Shown here one piece after another: positions 3,938 through 20,378 of a stretch of 21,319 nucleotides of DNA. Position 1 is the stretch's first letter, and every line of letters begins with the position of its first letter. The DNA comes from a virus, in IMG/VR virus record IMGVR_UViG_3300024289_001078, positions 1 to 21,319 of that record; one strand, 5' to 3'. The notes under the pieces were generated by a model. It had not been told where the DNA came from. It saw nothing but the letters and a program-made list of their open reading frames with translations, and ran no database searches. Both the position numbers and the translations under genes were made by a program.

Positions 3938-4101
3938 CTGGTAACTCCTCTATTGGTCAAAATAAAAACAACAAAGAAGATTAAACCTGTCAATGCTGCA
4001 CCATCCCTGAATCCCTGCCAGTACAGGCGTTCAATAATCATGCGCACTGGAATAAGGATGTCATCCAGCAACTCAATCGGTGGCATTTCCTGTGGATTCA
4101 T
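3934..4101 (-). CDS. Small membrane protein with one C-terminal transmembrane helix (55 aa)
   Basis: A 55-residue ORF starting MNPQEMPPIELLDD, with an amphipathic region, then a strongly hydrophobic helix (AALTGLIFFVVFILT) and a short NRGVTR tail. GGAG lies five bases before the ATG. The stop overlaps the peptidase start in ATGA, implying translational coupling. The 5' end overlaps the Cys-rich gene by 29 bases. With its position directly before the candidate endolysin it is a reasonable holin or peptidase-partner candidate; no family is recognised with certainty. Confidence 0.78.
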   Translation of the reverse strand: MNPQEMPPIELLDDILIPVRMIIERLYWQGFRDGAALTGLIFFVVFILTNRGVTR

Positions 4102-4459
4102 ATGCACTCCATTTACCTATGGGACACTTCTCAGTGACCCAGCTAGTTTTAGTCTTTATAAAACAGCCACATACACCGCACCTGTTTTGCTCTTTTAGGA
4201 ACTCACACTCTACGCATGTGCGCATTCTCTGCTGTTGCACTTCTAGTGGAACCCTCTTGCACCCTGCAAATGCCCACTTTGCTGCACTGGTGATCAGGCT
4301 TTTAGCCTGCTCACCTGCTGGTGGCAGTTCCACCTTGGTGTCTTCATCCCAAGCTTTGCGAACTCTGTCGTTGTGGTGGTAATACCAACACAGTTGGCAC
4401 TGTGTGGAGTCCCAAGTGCTGTTGGGTATCACATTGTCACAGGCACAGGGCCTAGGCAT
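4073..4459 (-). CDS. Cys-rich, double zinc-ribbon-like phage protein (128 aa)
   Basis: The product has two cysteine groups. The N-terminal one is C5, C7, C21 and C24 with nearby H28 and H29. The C-terminal one is C82-x2-C85, C94-x2-C97-x-C99 and C112, ending CPIGKW. The second, 'CxxC...rCGxCGCfixxK...CPxgkW', is a recurrent motif of small phage and bacterial proteins of unknown role and probably binds zinc. Between them lies an Ala-rich helix (KSLITSAAKWAFAGC). GAGG lies six bases before the ATG at 4459. It overlaps the end of the TIG fibre gene by eight bases. No membrane helix. Position between fibre and lysis genes gives no clear function; tail-fibre assembly or host take-over are possibilities, unproven. 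Confidence 0.82.
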   Translation of the reverse strand: MPRPCACDNVIPNSTWDSTQCQLCWYYHHNDRVRKAWDEDTKVELPPAGEQAKSLITSAAKWAFAGCKRVPLEVQQQRMRTCVECEFLKEQNRCGVCGCFIKTKTSWVTEKCPIGKWSAYESTGNATD

Positions 4460-7400
4460 TGCAAACCTCAGTCATTTGCAGGTTTTCTACAGGTGTTTCC
4501 GTAACAGTGAATGCAGTTGTTGGGAAAGACGAACTTGTATACACAAGAGGTAGTGTGGAGTAGTTTGCAAGAAATGAATTTAGGTCAGAGAATGCAGTAA
4601 TGTCTGTGGTGGATACCCTACCATTTTCAAACTCAGTACCGCACATAATAGAGTACAAATCGTTTTTCCCGTAGTGCCCTACAAACATTCCATTGCCATC
4701 ATCGTCCCCAGTCGTAGATTCAAGGTCGCCCATAATTAATGGGTAATCAAAGACACCATCCCTTGCCATAAATGCACTTTTAATAGTTGGATTAATTTGC
4801 AAAGAGTTCCAAAAATAACCCGTGGTAAAATTAATCTTGTTGTTGCCGTTTAATTGTGGATCTGCAACAACGGAATACTGACTAAATCCACTTTTATTAA
4901 CTGTCGGATGATAACCTTTGAAAAAGTCATAATGTGTGGGGGATGTTGGATGCAACTGGAATCTATAATTCCAGTCTAATGATGGATCTGCTGCAATATC
5001 GTGCTGCATTAAAGATCTTACAGAAGTTTCCCCAACGTATTCTGTAAGGTTTGTGGGTTTTAATTTCTTAACAAGAATTTCCTCTCTTAGTCGCCACGCA
5101 CCATTTGTAGATGCACCATAATAAGCAATATTCGCATAGTTTTTTGAGCTTGAGAAAAACACATACAGTGCTCCATTAAATAAAGTAATTTTAGGTTCAT
5201 ATAAACTTCCACCGTTTATGAATTCCACGAGTGGGTTGTATGCATAACCTCCCGGCATATGAATTGCTTTAAAAAAGAAAGCATCTGTTGTAAAATTATT
5301 AACGTATCCGTTTGGTTCTGCAATTACAGGAGGAGAACTAATTTTTCTTGAAAACTGCAAAGCAAGGTTTTTTGAATACTTTTTTACAACTCCTACAAAA
5401 TGTCTCTGGGTTTGTCCCCCTACTATAACCACATCGCCTGATGACAGCATTCCAACAACAAACCTTGCAGGTACTTTGAATCCCCTATGAAGGTTATTTA
5501 CAGCAATTTCCCCAAAATTTGGGTCTGATGCATGGTCGTACCCAACTGCATATACTGAATCCCCACTGACGTAAATATCACTAATATGGCAATTTGTATT
5601 ATTCCTCGGACCCTTTACCTCAATGTAAGACATAACTCCTGTTTGCAAATTAATCTTTGCAATAATGCTCCTGCAATTCTCTATTGCTTGCCAGCTATCT
5701 GGGTAACCCGCAGATGTTGTAAGCTTACCATTACTTTCCGATAAAAGTGCGTAAAGGTTAGGGTAGTCTGGAACAACTTTTAGTACATCAACCCTTTCTG
5801 TAAAACCTGCGGAAGACCAATCAAACTTGTAAAACTTCTTTGCAGCGTTCTCCACAGAAGGCCAGAATTTTTGCCATTCCCCATTATTGGAAAACCAACC
5901 AGCAGTAGCCCTTGTCCACTCAGCACTGTCTGATAAACCATCATGCCTTGTAACAGGTTTTGCAAAATAGATGTCGTTTGCCTTTTCCCAAGTTGAACTG
6001 TTTTCAAAGTAAAGGTTTGCGCCAACAAGAGTGTTTACAGGAGTTGTGTTGTTTGAGTAAGGTGCTTGGTAGCTGGATATGGTGGGATAGTTGATGTTTC
6101 GCAAATCAACTTGAAGTTGTATTGCATTATCTTTTGTTACCGTCCCGTATGCGCTAGTTAGTGTAAATTTAACCAATCCTCCAGTGGTTAAATTATTCAT
6201 AAATGGTACGGTAAATGAAACACGTGATGCATCTATTACCGTAAAAGTAGCCTCATACTTTACATTTGGATTGTTTGTGTAGAAAAATTCAATTTTTTGA
6301 GTAGTGTCTAAACCACCTCCCCAAATGACATATTGTCTTTCACTATCTAAATATGGAACAGAGTTATTCTCGGTTCCGTTTGCGTCCTTGTAAATACCTA
6401 CCCCATAAAGAGTGGGAGAATAATTCCTTGTAAAGTTTGAAGTAGATGTCGCAGTACCACCATTGGTGGTTACGGAAATAGGACCTGTGACTGCGCCAGA
6501 AGGCACAAATGCACGAATTGTGGTTGGCGTAACATCTGTAAAAGTAGCGGTCCAATTTCCAAAAGATACTCTACCTACAACCGGGGTTTGATTGTCCACA
6601 GCACTAACAAAATTAGTACCTGTAATAATAACTTCTGCTCCACTAAGTCCGCTAGTGGGTGTAAAACTGGATACGGTTGGAGCAGGCTGTAAAGTAAAAT
6701 TACCAACTGATGTTACTGTCCCAGCGGGAGAGGTTAATTCTATTTTACCACTGGTTGTTTGTTCATTAATAGATATAAAAATAGTATTGTTACTGGTAGT
6801 ACTTTTAGAAAATTGGTGCCCAACGCCATTAATTTTTACAGAGGTTGTGTCAAGTACGTTTTGCCCGAAAATTGTAATATATGAATTACTAGAACCTGTC
6901 CAAAGCTGGGGCGTTTCTGAAATTATAATTGGTTTGTAAAATAGATTTGAAGAGCTTATGTTATTTGGGTTACTGTATTGTTGCCCATATTCTAATGTAC
7001 GGTGATTATATTTTAAAATTGCTCTAAATGTCTTAACATCTTGAGGATTAGTAAATATAAATGTTTTCTTGTTTGGGCTATCGGGAGAAAACCCGGCAAT
7101 TCCAGCACTACGGAGTATTTCATATCCTTCAGCACCAATTGACCAAATTTGATAGTGACCATTAATATCTCTATTTGAGGATATTGTAATAGTTTCACCA
7201 CCACTGGCAGAACCTGTGGTTGGCGAAATAGTTATTGTGGGTTTATATACTGGAATTATTGTGAATAAAGTTCTCTGCTCAGAATAAAGAGTTCTTAGGG
7301 GATAATACAGGCTTACTCCATAAGATCCCGCATTAATCCAACCGGTTCCAGTATCCCCTACAGTAAATGGATTAATTATATTTGCTTCATTATAATAGCT

Positions 7401-8015
7401 AACACCTACTTTAGCGAAGTCGTAACCAACTAACCCAGCATTATTGTATTTAGTACCATTATTTGCATAATAACCTTTTGAAAATTTAAAAATACTTAAA
7501 TTTATGCCTTTTAGAATTATTACATCGCTTAACCAACTTTCTTTATGTTGTATAGATTGAATGCCCGTAGTATCATTAATGCTGGTAATAATACCTGAGT
7601 TTTCTGGAAGTAAAACCAATGCGGTCTTTCCATTGAGGTACTTTTGCAAAACTCTATAGGTATCTGTACGTGTTACATTATTTGAGTTTAATAAAAATGT
7701 TCTTGTTATGGTTACATATTTAAAAAGGTCCCCCTGTGACCAACCAAGTGGTGACAGGACATCTCCTGTATTATTAACAGGTGTAATATTTATAGGGTGG
7801 TCTGAAAGGAATGGTACTCCAATTCCAACCCCATAATTCCCATAATTATTATTGAACCTATTAAAATGTACCCACCCACTATTTGATGGATCTCCAAGAC
7901 CAACAGAAAACGTGCCAGTAGCATTAATTACATTTTCAGATGCATCTTTAAATTGAACATTCAGTGTTGTAATAAAACCTGATGTTGAATTAAATTCAGG
8001 CCATTCATAAGCCAT
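4452..8015 (-). CDS. Large TIG/IPT-domain tail fibre or adhesin (1187 aa)
   Basis: Probable receptor-contact protein. Residues 1-255 are an Asn/Gly-rich beta region. Three or four TIG/IPT immunoglobulin-like domains follow at about 258-360, 362-441, 445-529 and 533-634; the clearest has PTVSSFTPTSGLSGAEVIIT, GTNF and a C-terminal VTTNGGTATSTSNF. Residues 730-1187 look like repeated beta-sheet blades (LYALLSESNGKL, SVYAVGYDH, ALYVFFSSS), possibly a propeller or carbohydrate-binding region. AAGGTG lies four bases before the ATG. Base usage changes sharply near residue 670: the N-terminal two thirds are AT-rich (10 G+C of 60 at 7441-7500) and poor in TGCA, while the C-terminal third matches its neighbours. 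The fibre role is inferred from phage context; TIG domains also occur in bacterial surface proteins. Confidence 0.85.
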   Translation of the reverse strand: MAYEWPEFNSTSGFITTLNVQFKDASENVINATGTFSVGLGDPSNSGWVHFNRFNNNYGNYGVGIGVPFLSDHPINITPVNNTGDVLSPLGWSQGDLFKYVTITRTFLLNSNNVTRTDTYRVLQKYLNGKTALVLLPENSGIITSINDTTGIQSIQHKESWLSDVIILKGINLSIFKFSKGYYANNGTKYNNAGLVGYDFAKVGVSYYNEANIINPFTVGDTGTGWINAGSYGVSLYYPLRTLYSEQRTLFTIIPVYKPTITISPTTGSASGGETITISSNRDINGHYQIWSIGAEGYEILRSAGIAGFSPDSPNKKTFIFTNPQDVKTFRAILKYNHRTLEYGQQYSNPNNISSSNLFYKPIIISETPQLWTGSSNSYITIFGQNVLDTTSVKINGVGHQFSKSTTSNNTIFISINEQTTSGKIELTSPAGTVTSVGNFTLQPAPTVSSFTPTSGLSGAEVIITGTNFVSAVDNQTPVVGRVSFGNWTATFTDVTPTTIRAFVPSGAVTGPISVTTNGGTATSTSNFTRNYSPTLYGVGIYKDANGTENNSVPYLDSERQYVIWGGGLDTTQKIEFFYTNNPNVKYEATFTVIDASRVSFTVPFMNNLTTGGLVKFTLTSAYGTVTKDNAIQLQVDLRNINYPTISSYQAPYSNNTTPVNTLVGANLYFENSSTWEKANDIYFAKPVTRHDGLSDSAEWTRATAGWFSNNGEWQKFWPSVENAAKKFYKFDWSSAGFTERVDVLKVVPDYPNLYALLSESNGKLTTSAGYPDSWQAIENCRSIIAKINLQTGVMSYIEVKGPRNNTNCHISDIYVSGDSVYAVGYDHASDPNFGEIAVNNLHRGFKVPARFVVGMLSSGDVVIVGGQTQRHFVGVVKKYSKNLALQFSRKISSPPVIAEPNGYVNNFTTDAFFFKAIHMPGGYAYNPLVEFINGGSLYEPKITLFNGALYVFFSSSKNYANIAYYGASTNGAWRLREEILVKKLKPTNLTEYVGETSVRSLMQHDIAADPSLDWNYRFQLHPTSPTHYDFFKGYHPTVNKSGFSQYSVVADPQLNGNNKINFTTGYFWNSLQINPTIKSAFMARDGVFDYPLIMGDLESTTGDDDGNGMFVGHYGKNDLYSIMCGTEFENGRVSTTDITAFSDLNSFLANYSTLPLVYTSSSFPTTAFTVTETPVENLQMTEVCNA

Positions 8016-8023
8016 AAATCACC

Positions 8024-8263
8024 TTAGTATTGGAAGTATAATCCGTTGGATGGTGCAGTTCCTGTTGGAGCAGTAGTGCCAAACGTGTAAGCATTTGCAC
8101 TGCCCGGTACTAGATATGCAAGTGAAGTCCACGTTGCACTGCCGTTCCCAATTTTCATTTTCCCAGTGTCAGTCTCGTAAGCCAATTCTCCTTCAGAGAG
8201 AGTTGGGTTTATTAGTGCCCAGTTTTCACTTGTGTCACGGCGTAATTGAATTGGAATTGCCAT
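8024..8263 (-). CDS. Mtd-N / hyaluronate-lyase-type tail fibre N-terminal domain protein (79 aa)
   Basis: The product starts MAIPIQLRRDTSENW and continues with NPTLSEGELAYETDTGKMKI and GNGSATWTSLAYL. This is the common phage tail domain 'QlRRgTaxxWxxxNPvLxxGExgyETDTgxxKiGdGxxxWxxLxY', found at the N-terminus of Bordetella phage Mtd and many fibres. Here it is almost the entire protein, with only a Gly/Thr/Ala-rich tail (YTFGTTAPTGTAPSNGLYFQY). AGGAG is positioned well before the ATG. The same domain begins the 1052-residue fibre. It may be a short virion fibre base or adaptor for the TIG fibre encoded eight bases downstream. No reverse transcriptase or template repeat of a diversity-generating retroelement is seen. 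Confidence 0.85.
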   Translation of the reverse strand: MAIPIQLRRDTSENWALINPTLSEGELAYETDTGKMKIGNGSATWTSLAYLVPGSANAYTFGTTAPTGTAPSNGLYFQY

Positions 8264-8271
8264 ACATACTC

Positions 8272-9576
8272 CTATGGGTTTGCATTACCTGCATCAAATG
8301 GTGCTATGCCTCCGTACACAGTGTCAGCAGTACCACCATCAAGATTTGGAATTTGAATACCGTTGTAAGAACCACCACCACTACCCCCACCACCACTACC
8401 ACCACCTATTCCAGATGCATTGGTGGGCCTCCACCTGAAGTCATTTGCACCTTCTGTGGATTCACGCCAAGCCAGAACTTGATTTGCTGTCGCACCATCT
8501 TGCCCTAAACGGATCTCTAGATTAGTTAAATCATACTCTATGGGCGCAATCGGTGTCAACAACGGTTGCACATCTCCGGGTTTCCACTCATTACTGGAGT
8601 TGTCCCAAATTAGTGCCTGTCCATCAGCAGCACCTGACCTATTTATCCTCACTGTTTGTGTTGCACTAATGTATTGCAGAGGTGAAACAGCATTCAGGCT
8701 GTAAGCACCACTACCACCGCTGGATGGTATGTAATCCTCAATGTGTTGAAATGTGTTTGCATCACTCCACCAAGACTCAGTACTTGCTATGTCCCCATCG
8801 TAGAGATAGCCGTTTAATGTAGTGCTTGTTGGTGGGCCGAAACCAAGCTTTATGTGCATTGTTTTGCCAGATTCGTTGTACATGGTAATCTGGCGTATAA
8901 CACTGCTATTAGGGCTTCTAGAAGCTGTAGAAGGCAGCTTAAAAACACTAAAAACTTGAGTATTCCCATCAACTGCGACTATTTTTTGCTCAAGTCTTTC
9001 ATTAATGATTGTTTCAGAACTATCCTGCACCTCACCATGGGAAACTGTGATGTGCAACCTGTCATCTGACGTTAAAACATCACTTCCTGTGGCAGCTAAA
9101 ACAACGGAAATTTCATCAAAATTGCTTTCCTTGCTCAGTACTATTACTGACGGGTAACTAAGTAGAAAAGCTTCAGAAAATCTCCAAACTTTGTGCGATG
9201 GTATTACAAAATCAATCAGGTTCGTGTCTGTGTAATTTGCAGGGTCGTCTAATTGGCCTGATGATGTTCCAGCAGCAAGTGTAATGTCGGTATAAGACCT
9301 GATTCGCAGTGAGAAAGACTGTGTGCTTCCAGCAGTATTATAAAAGTAAAATTCCCTAACTACTCTTTTTTCACCAGAAGTACTACTTGTACTAAGAATT
9401 GTATTTACATTGTTCTGGGATGGCTGAGAGTAGGATACAAGTTCCTTGTATGTCTCATTATTCTCAGAATCCATGCTGTAACGCATGTAGTGCACGGTTG
9501 CTGCGATGTTGCACGCCACTCCCTGAGACTGCACATAAAGTTTTGATTTCTGGGGTATTACAAGAGTTTTGCTCAT
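8272..9576 (-). CDS. Tail fibre protein with duplicated beta domains and GGGS linker (434 aa)
   Basis: The start at 9576 is preferred to 9588 because its ATG overlaps the upstream stop in ATGA; the 9588 ATG abuts its only GGGG. Residues about 10-150 and 205-270 look like two related beta domains (compare EFYFYNTAGSTQSFSLRI with ITMYNESGKTMHIKLGF). Two fibre repeats follow (IRINRSGAADGQALIWD-type, near 296-335, and near 345-385: LEIRLGQDGATANQVLAW). A natural flexible linker IGGGSGGGGSGGGS lies near 390-403. The C-terminal NLDGGTADTVYGG is a motif seen at phage fibre ends. The repeats match those of the neighbouring collagen-like fibre, suggesting one fibre complex. Function inferred from repeats and position. 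Confidence 0.8.
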   Translation of the reverse strand: MSKTLVIPQKSKLYVQSQGVACNIAATVHYMRYSMDSENNETYKELVSYSQPSQNNVNTILSTSSTSGEKRVVREFYFYNTAGSTQSFSLRIRSYTDITLAAGTSSGQLDDPANYTDTNLIDFVIPSHKVWRFSEAFLLSYPSVIVLSKESNFDEISVVLAATGSDVLTSDDRLHITVSHGEVQDSSETIINERLEQKIVAVDGNTQVFSVFKLPSTASRSPNSSVIRQITMYNESGKTMHIKLGFGPPTSTTLNGYLYDGDIASTESWWSDANTFQHIEDYIPSSGGSGAYSLNAVSPLQYISATQTVRINRSGAADGQALIWDNSSNEWKPGDVQPLLTPIAPIEYDLTNLEIRLGQDGATANQVLAWRESTEGANDFRWRPTNASGIGGGSGGGGSGGGSYNGIQIPNLDGGTADTVYGGIAPFDAGNANP

Positions 9577-12500
9577 ATTCCAAACCATCCCCTTCTGTAG
9601 CCTGCATTAATTGGTTTGCTTTTCACAACAGCCTTGCTCCCAACAACAGCAAGTGCGTTGGTGGAATCAGTGTTTAATTTCAAATAAATTGCAGGATCCG
9701 CAGGTGTGCTGGGTACTGTGTCTAAAACAAGACCTGTTCCACTGCGAGTCTTTATTGCAAGAGTTGGATTTTGTGTGGTTCCCGTGTTTGCAAGACCACC
9801 GTTTGCATCTGCAAGTGTTGGGTCAGGAGATATACCTTGTGGTCCTTGTGGACCCTCTGCACCTGTTGCACCAGTGGGACCCCTTAAATTAGTTGGAGCA
9901 CCCCAAGGGTCTGTTGCACTGCTTGTCTTTGGCCCAAATATATAAGTCCCAACATACTCACCCAGTGTGGTTTCCAGCCTTGTAATATGGAAGTCGTCCA
10001 CATCACCAAGTGCAGAAGATGGATCGGGTGGAGTTGATGCGTTTGATTGCACTGTCGCATGATGTATGATCTGCCCTGATTGTGGTCCGGCAGGACCTGT
10101 GGCCCCTGTAGGGCCAGCAGGGCCTGTTGCACCTGTATCACCGTGCAATTCCACATAATTATCAGGCCAAACATTGTTAGCTTTTGGGCCGTAAAACCTT
10201 GTACTGGGTTCTGGACTAAGTATGGATACAAGAAGGAAGTCCCCATTTACACCAATACCTGAGTAAAGTGCAGGTAAGTCCTGACCTGTAAGTAATACAG
10301 GGTGGTCCACTCTGCGTATAAGGTTGGATGTACTCTGTCCTCTAGGACCTGTTGCACCTGTAGGACCAGCAGGACCTGCTGGTCCTGTTTCACCCTGAAT
10401 ACCTTGCACTCCTTGAGGGCCAACAAGATTTACAGGATCCTGCAACGATGTCCACCTGTTACCCAAGCAACCGCTGCACTTAGGTCCGTAAAGGATGTGA
10501 TTTGTGGTGTCTATGTAAAAATCACCACTGTTTCCAAGGTCCTGTGCAGGTACACCATCACCCCACAGTATGGTTGGCCTTGTGTGGTCGTATGGAACAG
10601 ATGCAATCCAGTTCACACCATCGTACACAAGTACATCACCCGCACTACCATTCACACCAAACGTGAGAGTGCGTGTGGTTTTATCCCAGTCAAGTGGAAG
10701 TGTTGCTTTGATATCAGCAGGTGGTAATTCTTTCTCACTCCAAATCTTTAGAGTGTCATCCCATGTCATTACATACCCATCAGTAGTACCCTCTGTAATT
10801 TTTAGAGTACCTGTGGATTTGTCCCAATCCAGTGGGGACATTGCAGTAATTTCAAGGATTGCTGTTGAGTTGACCCAGTTAGTTCCATCAAACTTTAGAA
10901 TTTCGTCCTGAGTAGGAGTTGTGATGATTACATCTTCTAGCTCATCGAGAGTGTCCACATATGTGCCGTGGTTCACCCACTCGTTGTTTTTAAATACAAG
11001 TATTTGGTCCTGTTCCGGGTTGGTAATGGTTACATCAGTAAGGCCGTCCAGTGTCACAATTGGTGATTGTGGTGTCCACGCCTTTGTGGTGTTGTCCCAA
11101 GTGAGAACTTCGCCAGTTGTTGTGCCATCAGCCAGTGCAATCGTGAAAGTGGTAACATTGTTGGATGTCTCAGACGATATGCTAATTGGTGCAGTGCCTT
11201 GCAGGTCAGCGGGTGGCCCCTGCTCACCACGCTCCACCAAAAGATCCCAGTTAGCCGTGGTGTTTGGTGTAATATTTAACGTGTTGTCCAACTCACATAT
11301 GTAAATTGCTCCCTGATACCCAACAACAGCACCTTTGGAGTAATTTACAGTGGAATCCCAGTTTCCGTTCCACTCCATACCAGCAGTGCCATCTTCCCCT
11401 GCTGGACCTGCCGAACCATTAGCACCATTTGCACCTGCCGGACCAACAAGTGAAATACCAGTACCCCAGCTAACAACACTATTGCTTGTGGATCTAGGAC
11501 CGTACAACAGTGGAGCACCTGTACCAGCAGTCTGAATGTACCAGTCGCCGTCAGTTGCATCTGTAGTCCCATCTGGTGCGCCCGTCCCTGTCTGGAGACT
11601 TTTTGCAGCACTTGCTTTGGATGCAACCCAGCTAGTCCCATCGTACTTAAGAACATTGCCAGTTTGTGCATTTGGAACATTGAATGAAAGTGTGGTTGTG
11701 GACTCGTCCCACACTATAGGAGCATTAGCATAAATGGTTGCAACTGCGTTCGCAGTGGAACCCTTGGATGCTACAAGGTTCCAATCTGCTGCGTTGGTTG
11801 GAGCATTGGTCGTACCACTGTTTGCAATCACAACATAGGAACTACCGTTGAACTGCACAACAGAGTTTAATGGGTACTGTGTACCACTTACGTAAGAACC
11901 CTTCCACACAAGTCCGGGAGTACCAGCAGGTCCTGTCGGCCCAGCAGGACCTGCTGAACCTGCACCACCTGCAAGACTGATTGGAGGCCCCCAAGGAGTA
12001 CCATTCGCAGCTACATAACCGCCGTACAAGTTCTTTGCAATCAGGTCAAAGTAGAAGTCTCCATCGTTCACACTGGTTGGATCAGGAAATGAGCTTGTTG
12101 GTGCTTGGTTTCCGTAGTGTATGGTCGCACCACGTGGTCCTGTTAAACCAGTAGGTCCTGCATCACCAGTATCACCCTTGTCACCCTTGTCACCTTTAAG
12201 GGAAATTCCATTACCCCAGCTAACCACACTATTTGTGGTAACACGTGGTCCAAATAAATCCTTGCTAGTGGTGTTTAAAAAGTAGTCGCCATCAATTCCA
12301 GTAGTGCTAGTGGTAGGATTACTTGTCCCAGTGAGTATGGTTGCCCCACGAGCACCCTGCACACCTTGAACACCTTGAATACCCTGAGTACCCTGCGGTC
12401 CGGTGGGGCCTGCTGGCCCCGTAGGACCGCTTGCAAGTACTCTTTCCCACACACCTGTGCCGTTTGAGTACTTCCATATGTACAGGTAATTTGTGTCTGT

Positions 12501-12731
12501 TTCGTACCAAAATGCTTTAGTTGTGGATGGATTACTTGGCGCAGGTGGTTCTGTGTTCTGAGCAATGTACGTAATTGCCCCTGCAAGGGAACTGATGGAA
12601 ACCCCACCAATGGTAAAACCATCACCTACAAACAATTCTCTCGTGTCTGTTGCAAAAGCTGGTTCACCTGCAAGAAGAGATTGTGTTTGTATTGCAGATT
12701 GTGGGCCACGTTTAAATTGAATTAATGCCAT
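9573..12731 (-). CDS. Collagen-like tail fibre with Mtd-N start, YGP modules and CBM-like domains (1052 aa)
   Basis: Residues 1-50 are an Mtd-N-like attachment domain (LLAGEPAFATDTRELFVGDG). Six modules of the type 'GDfYidt...lYGP...WG..isLxG' lie at about 148-180, 224-254, 395-430, 736-771, 830-864 and 912-950, each leading into a Gly-X-Y collagen-like tract. Two CBM5/12-like domains (275-320, WKGSYVSGTQYPLNSVVQF; 453-500, WNGNWDSTVNYSKGAVVGY) may bind chitin-like or other glycans. A separate fibre-repeat region (337-371, 515-711) carries 'plxWDxstxtLxi..G.VLxYDGxxW' units. GAGG lies six bases before the ATG. Probably forms a trimeric triple-helical fibre for surface contact; trimerisation is inferred from collagen-like phage fibres. 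Confidence 0.9.
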   Translation of the reverse strand: MALIQFKRGPQSAIQTQSLLAGEPAFATDTRELFVGDGFTIGGVSISSLAGAITYIAQNTEPPAPSNPSTTKAFWYETDTNYLYIWKYSNGTGVWERVLASGPTGPAGPTGPQGTQGIQGVQGVQGARGATILTGTSNPTTSTTGIDGDYFLNTTSKDLFGPRVTTNSVVSWGNGISLKGDKGDKGDTGDAGPTGLTGPRGATIHYGNQAPTSSFPDPTSVNDGDFYFDLIAKNLYGGYVAANGTPWGPPISLAGGAGSAGPAGPTGPAGTPGLVWKGSYVSGTQYPLNSVVQFNGSSYVVIANSGTTNAPTNAADWNLVASKGSTANAVATIYANAPIVWDESTTTLSFNVPNAQTGNVLKYDGTSWVASKASAAKSLQTGTGAPDGTTDATDGDWYIQTAGTGAPLLYGPRSTSNSVVSWGTGISLVGPAGANGANGSAGPAGEDGTAGMEWNGNWDSTVNYSKGAVVGYQGAIYICELDNTLNITPNTTANWDLLVERGEQGPPADLQGTAPISISSETSNNVTTFTIALADGTTTGEVLTWDNTTKAWTPQSPIVTLDGLTDVTITNPEQDQILVFKNNEWVNHGTYVDTLDELEDVIITTPTQDEILKFDGTNWVNSTAILEITAMSPLDWDKSTGTLKITEGTTDGYVMTWDDTLKIWSEKELPPADIKATLPLDWDKTTRTLTFGVNGSAGDVLVYDGVNWIASVPYDHTRPTILWGDGVPAQDLGNSGDFYIDTTNHILYGPKCSGCLGNRWTSLQDPVNLVGPQGVQGIQGETGPAGPAGPTGATGPRGQSTSNLIRRVDHPVLLTGQDLPALYSGIGVNGDFLLVSILSPEPSTRFYGPKANNVWPDNYVELHGDTGATGPAGPTGATGPAGPQSGQIIHHATVQSNASTPPDPSSALGDVDDFHITRLETTLGEYVGTYIFGPKTSSATDPWGAPTNLRGPTGATGAEGPQGPQGISPDPTLADANGGLANTGTTQNPTLAIKTRSGTGLVLDTVPSTPADPAIYLKLNTDSTNALAVVGSKAVVKSKPINAGYRRGWFGI
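9831..12428 (-). repeat. Seven collagen-like Gly-X-Y tracts
   Basis: The tracts lie at about 12342-12428, 12129-12194, 11913-11969, 11382-11444, 10338-10421, 10080-10142 and 9831-9884, within the 1052-residue fibre. They encode GPTGPAGP-, GIQGVQG- and GDKGDKGD-type triplets. Locally they raise G+C content and create repetitive DNA that could recombine. Confidence 0.9.
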
Positions 12732-12732
12732 A

Positions 12733-15504
12733 TTATGCCTCAGTAATTATTGCCTGAAGTGTGTTAGGTGATGCTGGAGTGCATGCGAATGGTGTGAGAT
12801 TCACACCGGGAATTGTGAGTGTGAATGGAGTGCAAAGACAGGTTGTAATGTTGTTAATTTCCACAGGACTTCTTGAAGCATTAACAATATCTTTCAACAC
12901 AAGCTTAAACGCAGTAGTACCAACCAGTGTAAGTTTTGCCTGAATAATGTCTTTTGTTGGTCCGAATTGGTCATATATTCCAATCCATCCACCATCTGAT
13001 GTGCTTTGTTGAAGTGGTATGACAACATCTTTGAGAAACTTACAAGAGCTTGGAGCATTGTTGAATTTAAGCTGTAAGTTCGAAGGGATTACACAAGACT
13101 GATTGGAACCGCACGGGAATGTACTGCTTGCAGAGTCTGAAATACATATTGGTGTGTTCGGTACTATTCCTGTGGAAGTGCCCTGAATATTTACAGGTAT
13201 GGATGTGAACATACCAAGTGTGAAAACTCCACCAACCTCGTTCAACTTACTATCACAAGCAATTGCCCTTGGTGCAGGGTATGGTATGGAGTCCACGCAG
13301 CGCATGTTCATGTACCAATTCATTGCTTGTGGGCGTTCTGCTTCTTGTTGAGAAAATGTGTCTGTTGCTGCATCAACGACAACAATGGCGTAGGATGGTG
13401 TTTTCTCAGTTTTATAGAAAGTCAACCTTCCCCAAGATTGTGCACCACTCTGGCAGGTGAAGCTTTTTGAACCGTACACAGTGCGTGATGCAACTTTGGA
13501 TCCATTCCAGTACACACTAACATTCATGGTTGTCTGGAAGTGGTAGTCAAGAGCAGCAGTGCCTATTGCACCACCTAGGCAAAACTTCACCACATAGGGC
13601 GGTTTGTGCCACTGTGGATATGTCGCAGCAGTTGCCCCTGTTGGGACTGTCTGGGTTTTTTGCAGGATTGCGCTGTAGGGTAGGAACATATCAGATGTGC
13701 CAAAACCATACAGTTGTGTAGTTGTACTGTCTCCCTGCATTCCTTTGCACTGACCGCAAGGATATGTATCAGCATCACAAGCTGCCTCATCACCCAAGTA
13801 GGACTCAATGTAAACCTCTTCAGTGAGGTCGTTGTAAGGTGGTCGTATCAGTCTAGTGTAGGTATCCTCAACACTAAGGTGAAATATAATGTTGTCCAGC
13901 ATTCCGTGCTGTTCTACTGGAACACAACCATTTAGGGATATATCGTCATCAGCGTATTGATATAAGGCCCAATCCCTTGCATATGTTTTGCAGAATGTTT
14001 CAATCTGATTAGTATTAAAGTCCTTCTCCGTTACACCTGTAGGAGGGTACATTAATATAGGGCATGCAGTTTTACCTGTTGTTTTATATGCACTGGCAAC
14101 AACCTTGAAATACTTGCTTAAAAGGGATTTACCCCTAAATGCATCCCCCCAACCAGAGTCACTGCGAGGCCCATAAAAGACATTATTCTTAGTGTCCAGA
14201 ATGTAGTCACCATTCTGGTATTCAACTGTTACTGAATTATTACCAGATTTGTAATAGGAGGGTTCTGAATTCTTATCATCCGGCCCTTGGTTATTGGTAT
14301 CCTCAAAGTATCGCATTTTCCCTGCAACCACTGAATCAAGGTCGGTTGGATCAACCATTGTTTCAATAATTTGAGAATGTAAAGTATCATCCCCATTAAT
14401 AGTCGTTTCACTTAGTGGCCTTTGCGTTGCAAGCCCATCCTTGTTCAAAAGATTAACTCTGATTGGGTTATTATTTACAACAAACGTAACAACCTCAGGT
14501 ATTACTCCGGGAGTGTCCCTGATATTAAGAGATTGTTTTTGCACATCATCGGAGTTTTTCCCAATGTCAGACTTGGATGGAAAACTTTTGTAAAACTTTG
14601 ATTTATCTAAATTTGCAAGTACCATTTTTCCCCCGCCCTGATTACCTGAGGGCGTGAGAAGAGGTTGTTTAAGAGCATCGAAGCTTTTCCTTGCATGCAT
14701 TATTTCTATTTGCCCATTGAAGTGGCTAATAATGCGACAGTTGCAAGATTGTGCTATCGAATCAAGAAGTAAAGGCACTCGTATGTTGTAAGACTGTTTT
14801 CGGTACAAGCTGTGTGGGAAAAGATACTCTTGGGGTATGTCAGGATCTACCAGTACTTGATGTTGTCCATAACCTAAGTTGTCAAATATGGTATAAAATA
14901 AATCCTCCCAGTTGGAGCAACTAGGTATTTTAAACTCCCCTGTGTTATGCCACCACCACCAATATCTATCATCCACTAACGGAACAACCCACAAGCTTTC
15001 CAAGTGTGGTACTGGAAACCTTCCCCTTGTTTCTATTGCATCATCAACAACAGTACTTTCAATTTGCAAAAGTGGTCTTGGTGGCAGCATATACATTTTT
15101 GCTGCCAGTGGGATCTCAGTGTTATAGATGACAAGTTTTTCAGCAGTGTAGTAATTTTTAGAATTTACCCTACTGCGCATTCCCCCAAGCGTATCAACGG
15201 CATCTTTGTACCCAAGGTTGTCAAAAGATGGTAGCTTTTCCAAGTCTTCTGAAGAAACCAAGAAAAACCCAGTTGCAAATCTACTTGCCCCTGTGGGCCA
15301 ATACAAAGAACTTAGTTTTAAATCATGGAATGGATTTTCCGAATAGTTTTTAAAAACAATGTCAGAGTTATCGAGCAATCCATAGTTAAGAGTTCTAAAG
15401 TAATTACTCGCATTAAATGGTATATTCTCCTCCACCCAGTCATATAATTCCTTGGGTGGAACCATTAATGGAACTCCAGCGTATGTAAACTCTTGGTCAA
15501 TCAT
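12733..15504 (-). CDS. Large tail/baseplate structural candidate (923 aa)
   Basis: I do not recognise a named family. Residues 1-330 contain a short motif LLDSIAQSCNCRIISHFNGQ (247-265) of a type I associate with baseplate-like proteins in planctomycete prophages (memory only). An unusual YWWWWHN sits at 181-187. Residues 431-453 carry one YGP module (GDYILDT, VFYGPRSDSGWG) like the six in the adjacent fibre. The C-terminal half is Cys-rich (CGQCKG, CLCTPF, several CxnxxC) and beta-like, ending in LTIPGVNLTPFACTP. The start codon overlaps the upstream stop by one base (TAATG) and no clear Shine-Dalgarno site is seen, so translation is probably coupled. Size, order and the shared module suggest a fibre-bearing baseplate or tail-tip protein. 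Confidence 0.7.
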   Translation of the reverse strand: MIDQEFTYAGVPLMVPPKELYDWVEENIPFNASNYFRTLNYGLLDNSDIVFKNYSENPFHDLKLSSLYWPTGASRFATGFFLVSSEDLEKLPSFDNLGYKDAVDTLGGMRSRVNSKNYYTAEKLVIYNTEIPLAAKMYMLPPRPLLQIESTVVDDAIETRGRFPVPHLESLWVVPLVDDRYWWWWHNTGEFKIPSCSNWEDLFYTIFDNLGYGQHQVLVDPDIPQEYLFPHSLYRKQSYNIRVPLLLDSIAQSCNCRIISHFNGQIEIMHARKSFDALKQPLLTPSGNQGGGKMVLANLDKSKFYKSFPSKSDIGKNSDDVQKQSLNIRDTPGVIPEVVTFVVNNNPIRVNLLNKDGLATQRPLSETTINGDDTLHSQIIETMVDPTDLDSVVAGKMRYFEDTNNQGPDDKNSEPSYYKSGNNSVTVEYQNGDYILDTKNNVFYGPRSDSGWGDAFRGKSLLSKYFKVVASAYKTTGKTACPILMYPPTGVTEKDFNTNQIETFCKTYARDWALYQYADDDISLNGCVPVEQHGMLDNIIFHLSVEDTYTRLIRPPYNDLTEEVYIESYLGDEAACDADTYPCGQCKGMQGDSTTTQLYGFGTSDMFLPYSAILQKTQTVPTGATAATYPQWHKPPYVVKFCLGGAIGTAALDYHFQTTMNVSVYWNGSKVASRTVYGSKSFTCQSGAQSWGRLTFYKTEKTPSYAIVVVDAATDTFSQQEAERPQAMNWYMNMRCVDSIPYPAPRAIACDSKLNEVGGVFTLGMFTSIPVNIQGTSTGIVPNTPICISDSASSTFPCGSNQSCVIPSNLQLKFNNAPSSCKFLKDVVIPLQQSTSDGGWIGIYDQFGPTKDIIQAKLTLVGTTAFKLVLKDIVNASRSPVEINNITTCLCTPFTLTIPGVNLTPFACTPASPNTLQAIITEA
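14181..14214 (-). repeat. Single YGP module shared with the neighbouring fibre
   Basis: Encodes the GDYILDT...VFYGP part of the 923-residue protein, the same module type that occurs six times in the 1052-residue fibre. It is degenerate at the DNA level; similarity is at protein level. Confidence 0.6.
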
Positions 15505-19843: not shown

Positions 19844-20378
19844 CGTTTGTCACCCCCAGCATGTACCTGCATTCGAAAGCAAGGATGGAAATACCGTATT
19901 GCTTTTGCGCATCCTTCTCGTCACCACCCCTTGTGTAACCATCCTGAGAGTGTCCCACAAAGTCTTGTATGGGTTGTGTCATGCGCATTGGTTCAATCAG
20001 AAGATCATTACCAGATGAATCCTTGAGCCTTCGAAGGTGGAGCAGGTTTATAACCTGCTCCTCCCTTGCGAGGTGTCCTAAGGTAGGATCTAGCAACCAC
20101 CTCTCGTCACTGTTGGAAACATCCACACCAAACCTTGTGCGAATTGCCACATACATCTGCCTTTGCACGACAGATGCAAGCCTTCCACTACCCTGCACAA
20201 ATCCATCTTCTGGTGTGGGGGAACCCGGTCTGATAATGAAGTCCTGATCACCTGTGAAATTGGGAATAATTGTTTTTGCAACCAGCAGAACCTTGTGGGA
20301 TCCCACTGCAAGTTCGTTCACTAGCAATGTCTTGATCGCAGTGAGTATGTTACCCGTGTTGCTCTTTATTAATGCCAT
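19833..20378 (-). CDS. Tail-completion-like or neck-like phage protein (181 aa)
   Basis: The product starts MALIKSNTGNILTAIKTLLV and contains FIIRPGSPTPEDG, RQMYVAIRTRFGVD and near the end ISILAFECRYMLG. A helix followed by an antiparallel beta sheet, ending in a strand like 'FECRYxL', is the style of small tail-completion or terminator proteins, though no named family is certain. AGGA lies five bases before the ATG, and the start overlaps the upstream stop by one base (TAATG). Its place between the long Lys/Glu-rich protein and the 566-residue structural protein supports a tail role. Confidence 0.7.
   Translation of the reverse strand: MALIKSNTGNILTAIKTLLVNELAVGSHKVLLVAKTIIPNFTGDQDFIIRPGSPTPEDGFVQGSGRLASVVQRQMYVAIRTRFGVDVSNSDERWLLDPTLGHLAREEQVINLLHLRRLKDSSGNDLLIEPMRMTQPIQDFVGHSQDGYTRGGDEKDAQKQYGISILAFECRYMLGVTNDGY

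Follow-up and report, generated by a model that had tools for sequence, protein, structure and literature searches.

Probable exchange of a whole gene at a hypervariable slot of a temperate tailed phage and its relatives

Introduction

The window studied here, a stretch of 21,319 nucleotides from the virus record IMGVR_UViG_3300024289_001078, contains one large gene whose two parts differ in composition, and the question is whether this gene was assembled from two sources or exchanged as a unit. A first-pass annotation had described it as a chimeric tail-fibre gene with a sharp switch in TGCA frequency and G+C near residue 670, and had proposed that only the N-terminal two thirds had been acquired from elsewhere. 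Our analysis supports acquisition in a different form: with a probability of roughly four in five, the gene occupies a hypervariable cassette slot of a temperate tailed-phage lineage and has been exchanged whole.

Results

The slot gene and its product

The features of the locus are listed in Table 1. The slot gene is read from 8015 down to 4452, and position 6000 corresponds to about residue 672; the codons on either side of this point are referred to below as the N part and the C part. The product is rich in Thr, Asn and Ser, and its first 672 residues are devoid of Cys, poor in Met and His and lower in Ala, whereas Thr, Ile and Asn are more frequent there. The TIG domain (PF01833, residues 446-529) scored 39.8 bits against a curated cut-off of 20.9 (E 4.4e-10), and the sequence match to 3kya and 4hw6, two proteins with TIG and beta-propeller domains, was limited to this domain. 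The C part had no match in a Pfam family search, and AlphaFold single-sequence models of the two halves reached a mean pLDDT of 31 and 33, too low to give a usable fold, so that the beta-blade region described in the first-pass annotation was not confirmed. An Rfam scan of the window found nothing.

Table 1. Coordinates of the slot gene, its parts and its neighbours in the window
Feature	Coordinates	Strand	Remarks
Conserved downstream flank, 128 aa Cys-rich protein	4073..4459	-	57-65% identical in relatives
Slot gene (Y), encoding a putative tail-associated adhesin / receptor-binding protein of 1187 aa	4452..8015	-	TIG at residues 446-529
Slot gene codons 673-1187	4452..5999	-	TGCA as usual for phage; GC 0.391, still low
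Slot gene codons 1-672	6000..8015	-	Low TGCA, contig's lowest GC, deviant codon usage
79-aa Mtd_N gene	8024..8263	-	Occupies position of relatives' larger X gene
Conserved upstream flank of slot, 438 aa	8272..9588	-	50-54% identical, 7 distinct relatives, first ~390 residues
Collagen-type tail-fibre gene	9573..12731	-	Conserved in relatives (53-59%)

Searched against phage records, IMG/VR and GTDB genomes, the whole gene and each of its halves matched nothing but nearly identical contigs of this phage, and in three independent contigs of the phage the slot protein was identical. The window gene was also unmatched in a whole-record search of 20 relative records. When the two ends were searched separately, residues 1-440 and 640-1187 were both without a match in relatives, and the TIG domain alone was common; tblastn of residues 1-440, 441-672 and 640-1187 against all loci collected other than those of the phage itself gave only weak matches in the TIG region. 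Genes near other Mtd_N proteins were considered as candidate donors and none matched the window gene, nor was a donor found in any of the searches. Relatives sought among GTDB genomes through the DNA polymerase were likewise not found, and in a search of 50,697 phage records the terminase of the phage had only remote matches.

Composition inside the gene and at its ends

The counts behind the proposed switch proved exact (TGCA occurs 23 times in 4441-6000 and six times in 6001-8015), and the G+C values of 10/60, 16/60 and 27/60 were reproduced at 7441-7500, 7501-7560 and 19861-19920, respectively. The TGCA contrast exceeded what a uniform rate would give by chance (change-point p=0.0015; 0.003 in a second test), and a sliding-window scan of the 50-kb contig G002 with 2016-nt windows placed 6000-8015 lowest for both TGCA and GC.

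The description of the switch as sharp was not borne out. The TGCA change-point was best placed at 5682, with support spanning 5662-6552, and the stretch devoid of TGCA extended only from 6511 to 7463. For GC there was no step at 6000, since 5001-5500 (0.364) was lower than 6001-6500 (0.384); the best GC-only cut within the gene fell at 6733 (p=0.008), the statistic at 5999 was small, and the low-GC stretches quoted in favour of the switch sit about 1.4 kb away from its alleged position. For four-letter composition, the best cut within the gene was not significant (p=0.118). Synonymous codon usage changed at codon 610 (p=0.03) and GC3 at codon 637 (p=0.017), and the codon statistic at codon 672 itself gave p=0.13. 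The codon-usage excess per codon was 0.164 in the N part and 0.072 in the C part, and the N part fitted the word signature of the phage less well than the C part, yet still carried it (z 3.5). Along most of the slot gene, GC3 was about 0.1 below the phage expectation.

Part of the TGCA contrast is set by the protein. When codons were sampled at phage usage with the same protein sequence kept, 3.9 TGCA per kb were predicted for the N part and 6.9 per kb for the C part, a difference due to the lower content of Ala, His, Met and Cys in the N part. On a log scale, the encoded amino acids thus account for about one third of the five-fold contrast. TGCA is the most over-represented tetranucleotide of the phage, at 1.64x its protein-conditional expectation phage-wide. 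The six occurrences in the N part compare with 7.7 expected (0.78x), or 12.5 after scaling by 1.64x (Poisson P=0.034), and the 23 in the C part with 11.0 expected (2.10x), or 18.0 after scaling (P=0.14). The N part was also below every other 2-kb coding block of the phage in TGCA. Corrected for the selection of one word out of 256, the difference between the two parts was not significant (|z| 2.8 against a mean null maximum of 2.9), although TGCA is a less arbitrary choice of word, being the most over-represented one. The TGCA deficit left in the N part after protein and phage usage are allowed for is weak, yet probably real. In the phage genes counted (window and G002) we also noticed that CGCG was missing altogether (0 observed, 52 expected) and that TGCA and TGCG both lay far above the level expected from codon shuffling; restriction avoidance is among the possible causes.

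The strongest changes lay at the ends of the gene. Recursive unsupervised segmentation of the whole window placed two strong edges, each with z about 10, at 4473 and 8042, both within 30 bases of the ends of the slot gene, and made no comparable cut inside it. The compositional island is the whole slot gene. Deviation of this size was also seen in other genes of the same phage: a2378 (L016 2378-4510) deviates in codon usage as much as the slot gene, and a9068 (L016 9068-12964; 1298 codons) has a stronger internal break in synonymous codons and GC3, near codon 800. Within the slot genes of the relatives L065, L066 and L068, composition or codon usage broke as strongly as in the window gene or more so, but none of them had a TGCA break like that of the window gene.

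These results bear directly on the reading in which residues 1 to about 670 came from an AT-rich, TGCA-poor source and the C-terminal part is native to the phage. The low TGCA of the N part, its more deviant codon usage, its poorer fit to the word signature of the phage and the change-points near codons 610 and 637 all point in its direction. On the other hand, the edges at the gene ends are strong, the internal change is broad rather than sharp and stems partly from amino-acid composition, the N part retains the phage signature, and other genes of the phage vary as much. Moreover, relatives lack any homologue of the C part, which is therefore not demonstrably native. We therefore regard this reading as unlikely. 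The added proposal that the gene shows the reverse of the usual pattern, in which the receptor-binding C-terminus is swapped, finds no support, the C-terminal part being absent from relatives too. A variant that places a two-source chimera inside the exchanged cassette, with a join near codons 490-785 and the AT-rich N part containing the TIG domain as the newer arrival, seems to us equally doubtful; the accompanying supposition that the C part was already close to the TGCA-rich composition of the phage is just as tentative.

The same slot in relatives

A search with the terminase of G002 retrieved viral contigs with TerL 75-91% identical. In every relative region compared, and as far as the contigs reach, the gene order was the same: 12733, 9573, 8272, X, Y, 4073, 3125, 2523, 1919, YqaJ, GNAT and integrase, where Y is the slot gene and X the gene ahead of it. 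Gene 8272 was present in eight of the 20 relative records (50-54%) and gene 12733 in nine (40-54%). In the window, the start codon of gene 4073 falls within the last bases of the slot gene. The relatives are collinear with the window on either side of the slot, but in nearly every lineage the slot is occupied by a different large protein, mostly one with TIG.

Several observations concern the surroundings of the slot. In gene 12733, L002 and L004 differ from window positions 13417-13603 by 10 substitutions in 187 bases, all silent and at third codon positions, with nearly identical sequence around them; this cluster is probably a small recombination tract. Just past the integrase stop (window position 1), L006 4981-5070 resembles the 3' half of a tRNA-Arg(CCT) gene, and in the relatives L062 and L066 a complete tRNA-Arg(CCT) adjoins the integrase; the piece is likely to be the attachment site. 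L006 5070-5934, beyond the tRNA-like piece and outside the window, may be DNA of the host or of a neighbouring element. At the far end of G002, L017 14599-15747 carries a bpMoxR-type AAA ATPase gene with codon usage and word signature unlike those of the phage, and this region is probably flanking host DNA.

The 18 relative loci found through gene 4073 carried 10 slot alleles, and that of the window is the eleventh. In the seven distinct alleles that were examined closely, Y ranged from 723 to 1416 aa; TIG domains were found in six of them, BspA-type LRR in two, and a beta-helix and a tail-collar domain in one each. These modules, together with Pro/Thr linkers, are shuffled among the Y genes of the relatives. 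Among close relatives, similarity in DNA stopped at the slot gene and returned at the start of the following one. The DNA of L063 and L065 is 86% identical up to 10371 (Y starts at 10365) and 96% identical from 12538 (gene 4073 starts at 12539), with some modules in common inside Y. For the pairs L063/L064 and L066/L062, similarity returned within 8 nt of the start of gene 4073 and faded sooner on the upstream side, within X or just ahead of it. The flanks of the window are only about 50% identical to those of the relatives, so its own breakpoints are not exactly placeable.

That no exchange took place, and that an old, vertically inherited gene for a Thr/Asn/Ser-rich beta protein has evolved too fast to be recognised, we consider highly improbable. 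In its favour, about a third of the TGCA contrast follows from protein composition, and GC is slightly lower in the slot genes of the relatives, too, than in the flanks. However, where the flanks of close relatives are 85-96% identical in DNA, their slot genes have long stretches that do not align and are non-homologous, with different domain families encoded, and this indicates replacement rather than divergence; in the window gene, the low GC3 shows that codon choice deviates in addition to the amino acids.

The Mtd_N gene ahead of the slot gene

The 79-aa Mtd_N protein had no similarity to the X genes of the relatives in BLAST. Its closest matches outside the phage were Mtd_N domains that open proteins, several of which are very long, encoded on other viral contigs, with 51-71% identity for most. 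This suggests that X and Y were probably replaced jointly in the window. The presence of an Mtd_N gene directly upstream might recall Mtd-type tropism switching, with the slot gene as the target of a diversity-generating retroelement, but this is scarcely credible, as reverse transcriptase (PF00078) was absent from G002 (50,466 bases, possibly incomplete) and eight relatives while control genomes matched, the slot protein does not vary among the three independent contigs, the alleles differ in whole modules and not by point changes within one domain, and Mtd_N is a general N-terminal domain of tail fibres.

Discussion

We favour exchange of the whole gene. The slot lies between the conserved genes 8272 and 4073, near the collagen-type tail-fibre gene 9573, and in each lineage it carries a smaller gene together with a gene for a single large protein of modular build, in most cases containing Ig-like TIG domains. 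The occupant would be replaced by recombination in the conserved flanks; the pattern of whole-gene replacement is seen directly in the relatives, and the mechanism is what we infer from it. In the same manner, shuffling of the interior is seen in the genes of the relatives and could proceed by recombination through shared modules. For the window gene itself, exchange is suggested by its absence from relatives and by its composition. Less readily accommodated are the TGCA deficit of the N part beyond protein and phage usage and the lack of a comparable TGCA break in the relatives. The anomaly as a whole probably reflects both an origin in another gene pool and a Thr/Asn/Ser-rich product, and the weaker difference between the N and C parts of the gene probably comes from amino-acid composition and, possibly, separate origins of modules. 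What stands of the first-pass interpretation is the exchange, in view of the edges at the gene ends and the differing slots of the relatives; its restriction to the N-terminal two thirds does not.

The slot product is probably a tail-associated adhesin or receptor-binding protein, a putative role favoured because the slot is near the collagen-type tail fibre and one allele has a tail-collar domain. Its most probable place is on the tail, where it would bind the host surface; a swap would then change adsorption specificity. This environmental temperate phage lineage would then possess a tail-adhesin slot whose entire occupant is exchanged, with breakpoints at the gene ends. The case also indicates that an anomaly in word counts needs correction for the protein sequence and a check against relatives before a gene is labelled a chimera.

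Comparable arrangements are known. In distantly related Alteromonas phages a host-recognition module has been transferred between lineages (PMC10579305); there the tail fibre moves with its cognate chaperone, whereas at our locus neither chaperone nor donor was identified. In phage receptor-binding proteins, domains of tail fibres and spikes have been shuffled recently, Ig-like ones being among the over-represented (PMC10684548), and such domain mosaicism is seen here in the genes of the relatives, while the window gene is traceable through its TIG domain only. A parallel in arrangement is given by cryoconite phages, in which flexible gene modules, or metagenomic islands, carry receptor-binding genes (PMC7468147). 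As in our lineage, a near-constant core is combined with a fixed site at which receptor-binding or tail genes are interchangeable; the relatives studied here are more diverged, and most of their alleles are modular TIG proteins without homology to one another, whereas those of the cryoconite phages are variants of one C1q-type gene. Whole-gene exchange of an adhesin is ordinary phage host-range evolution and fits this known picture.
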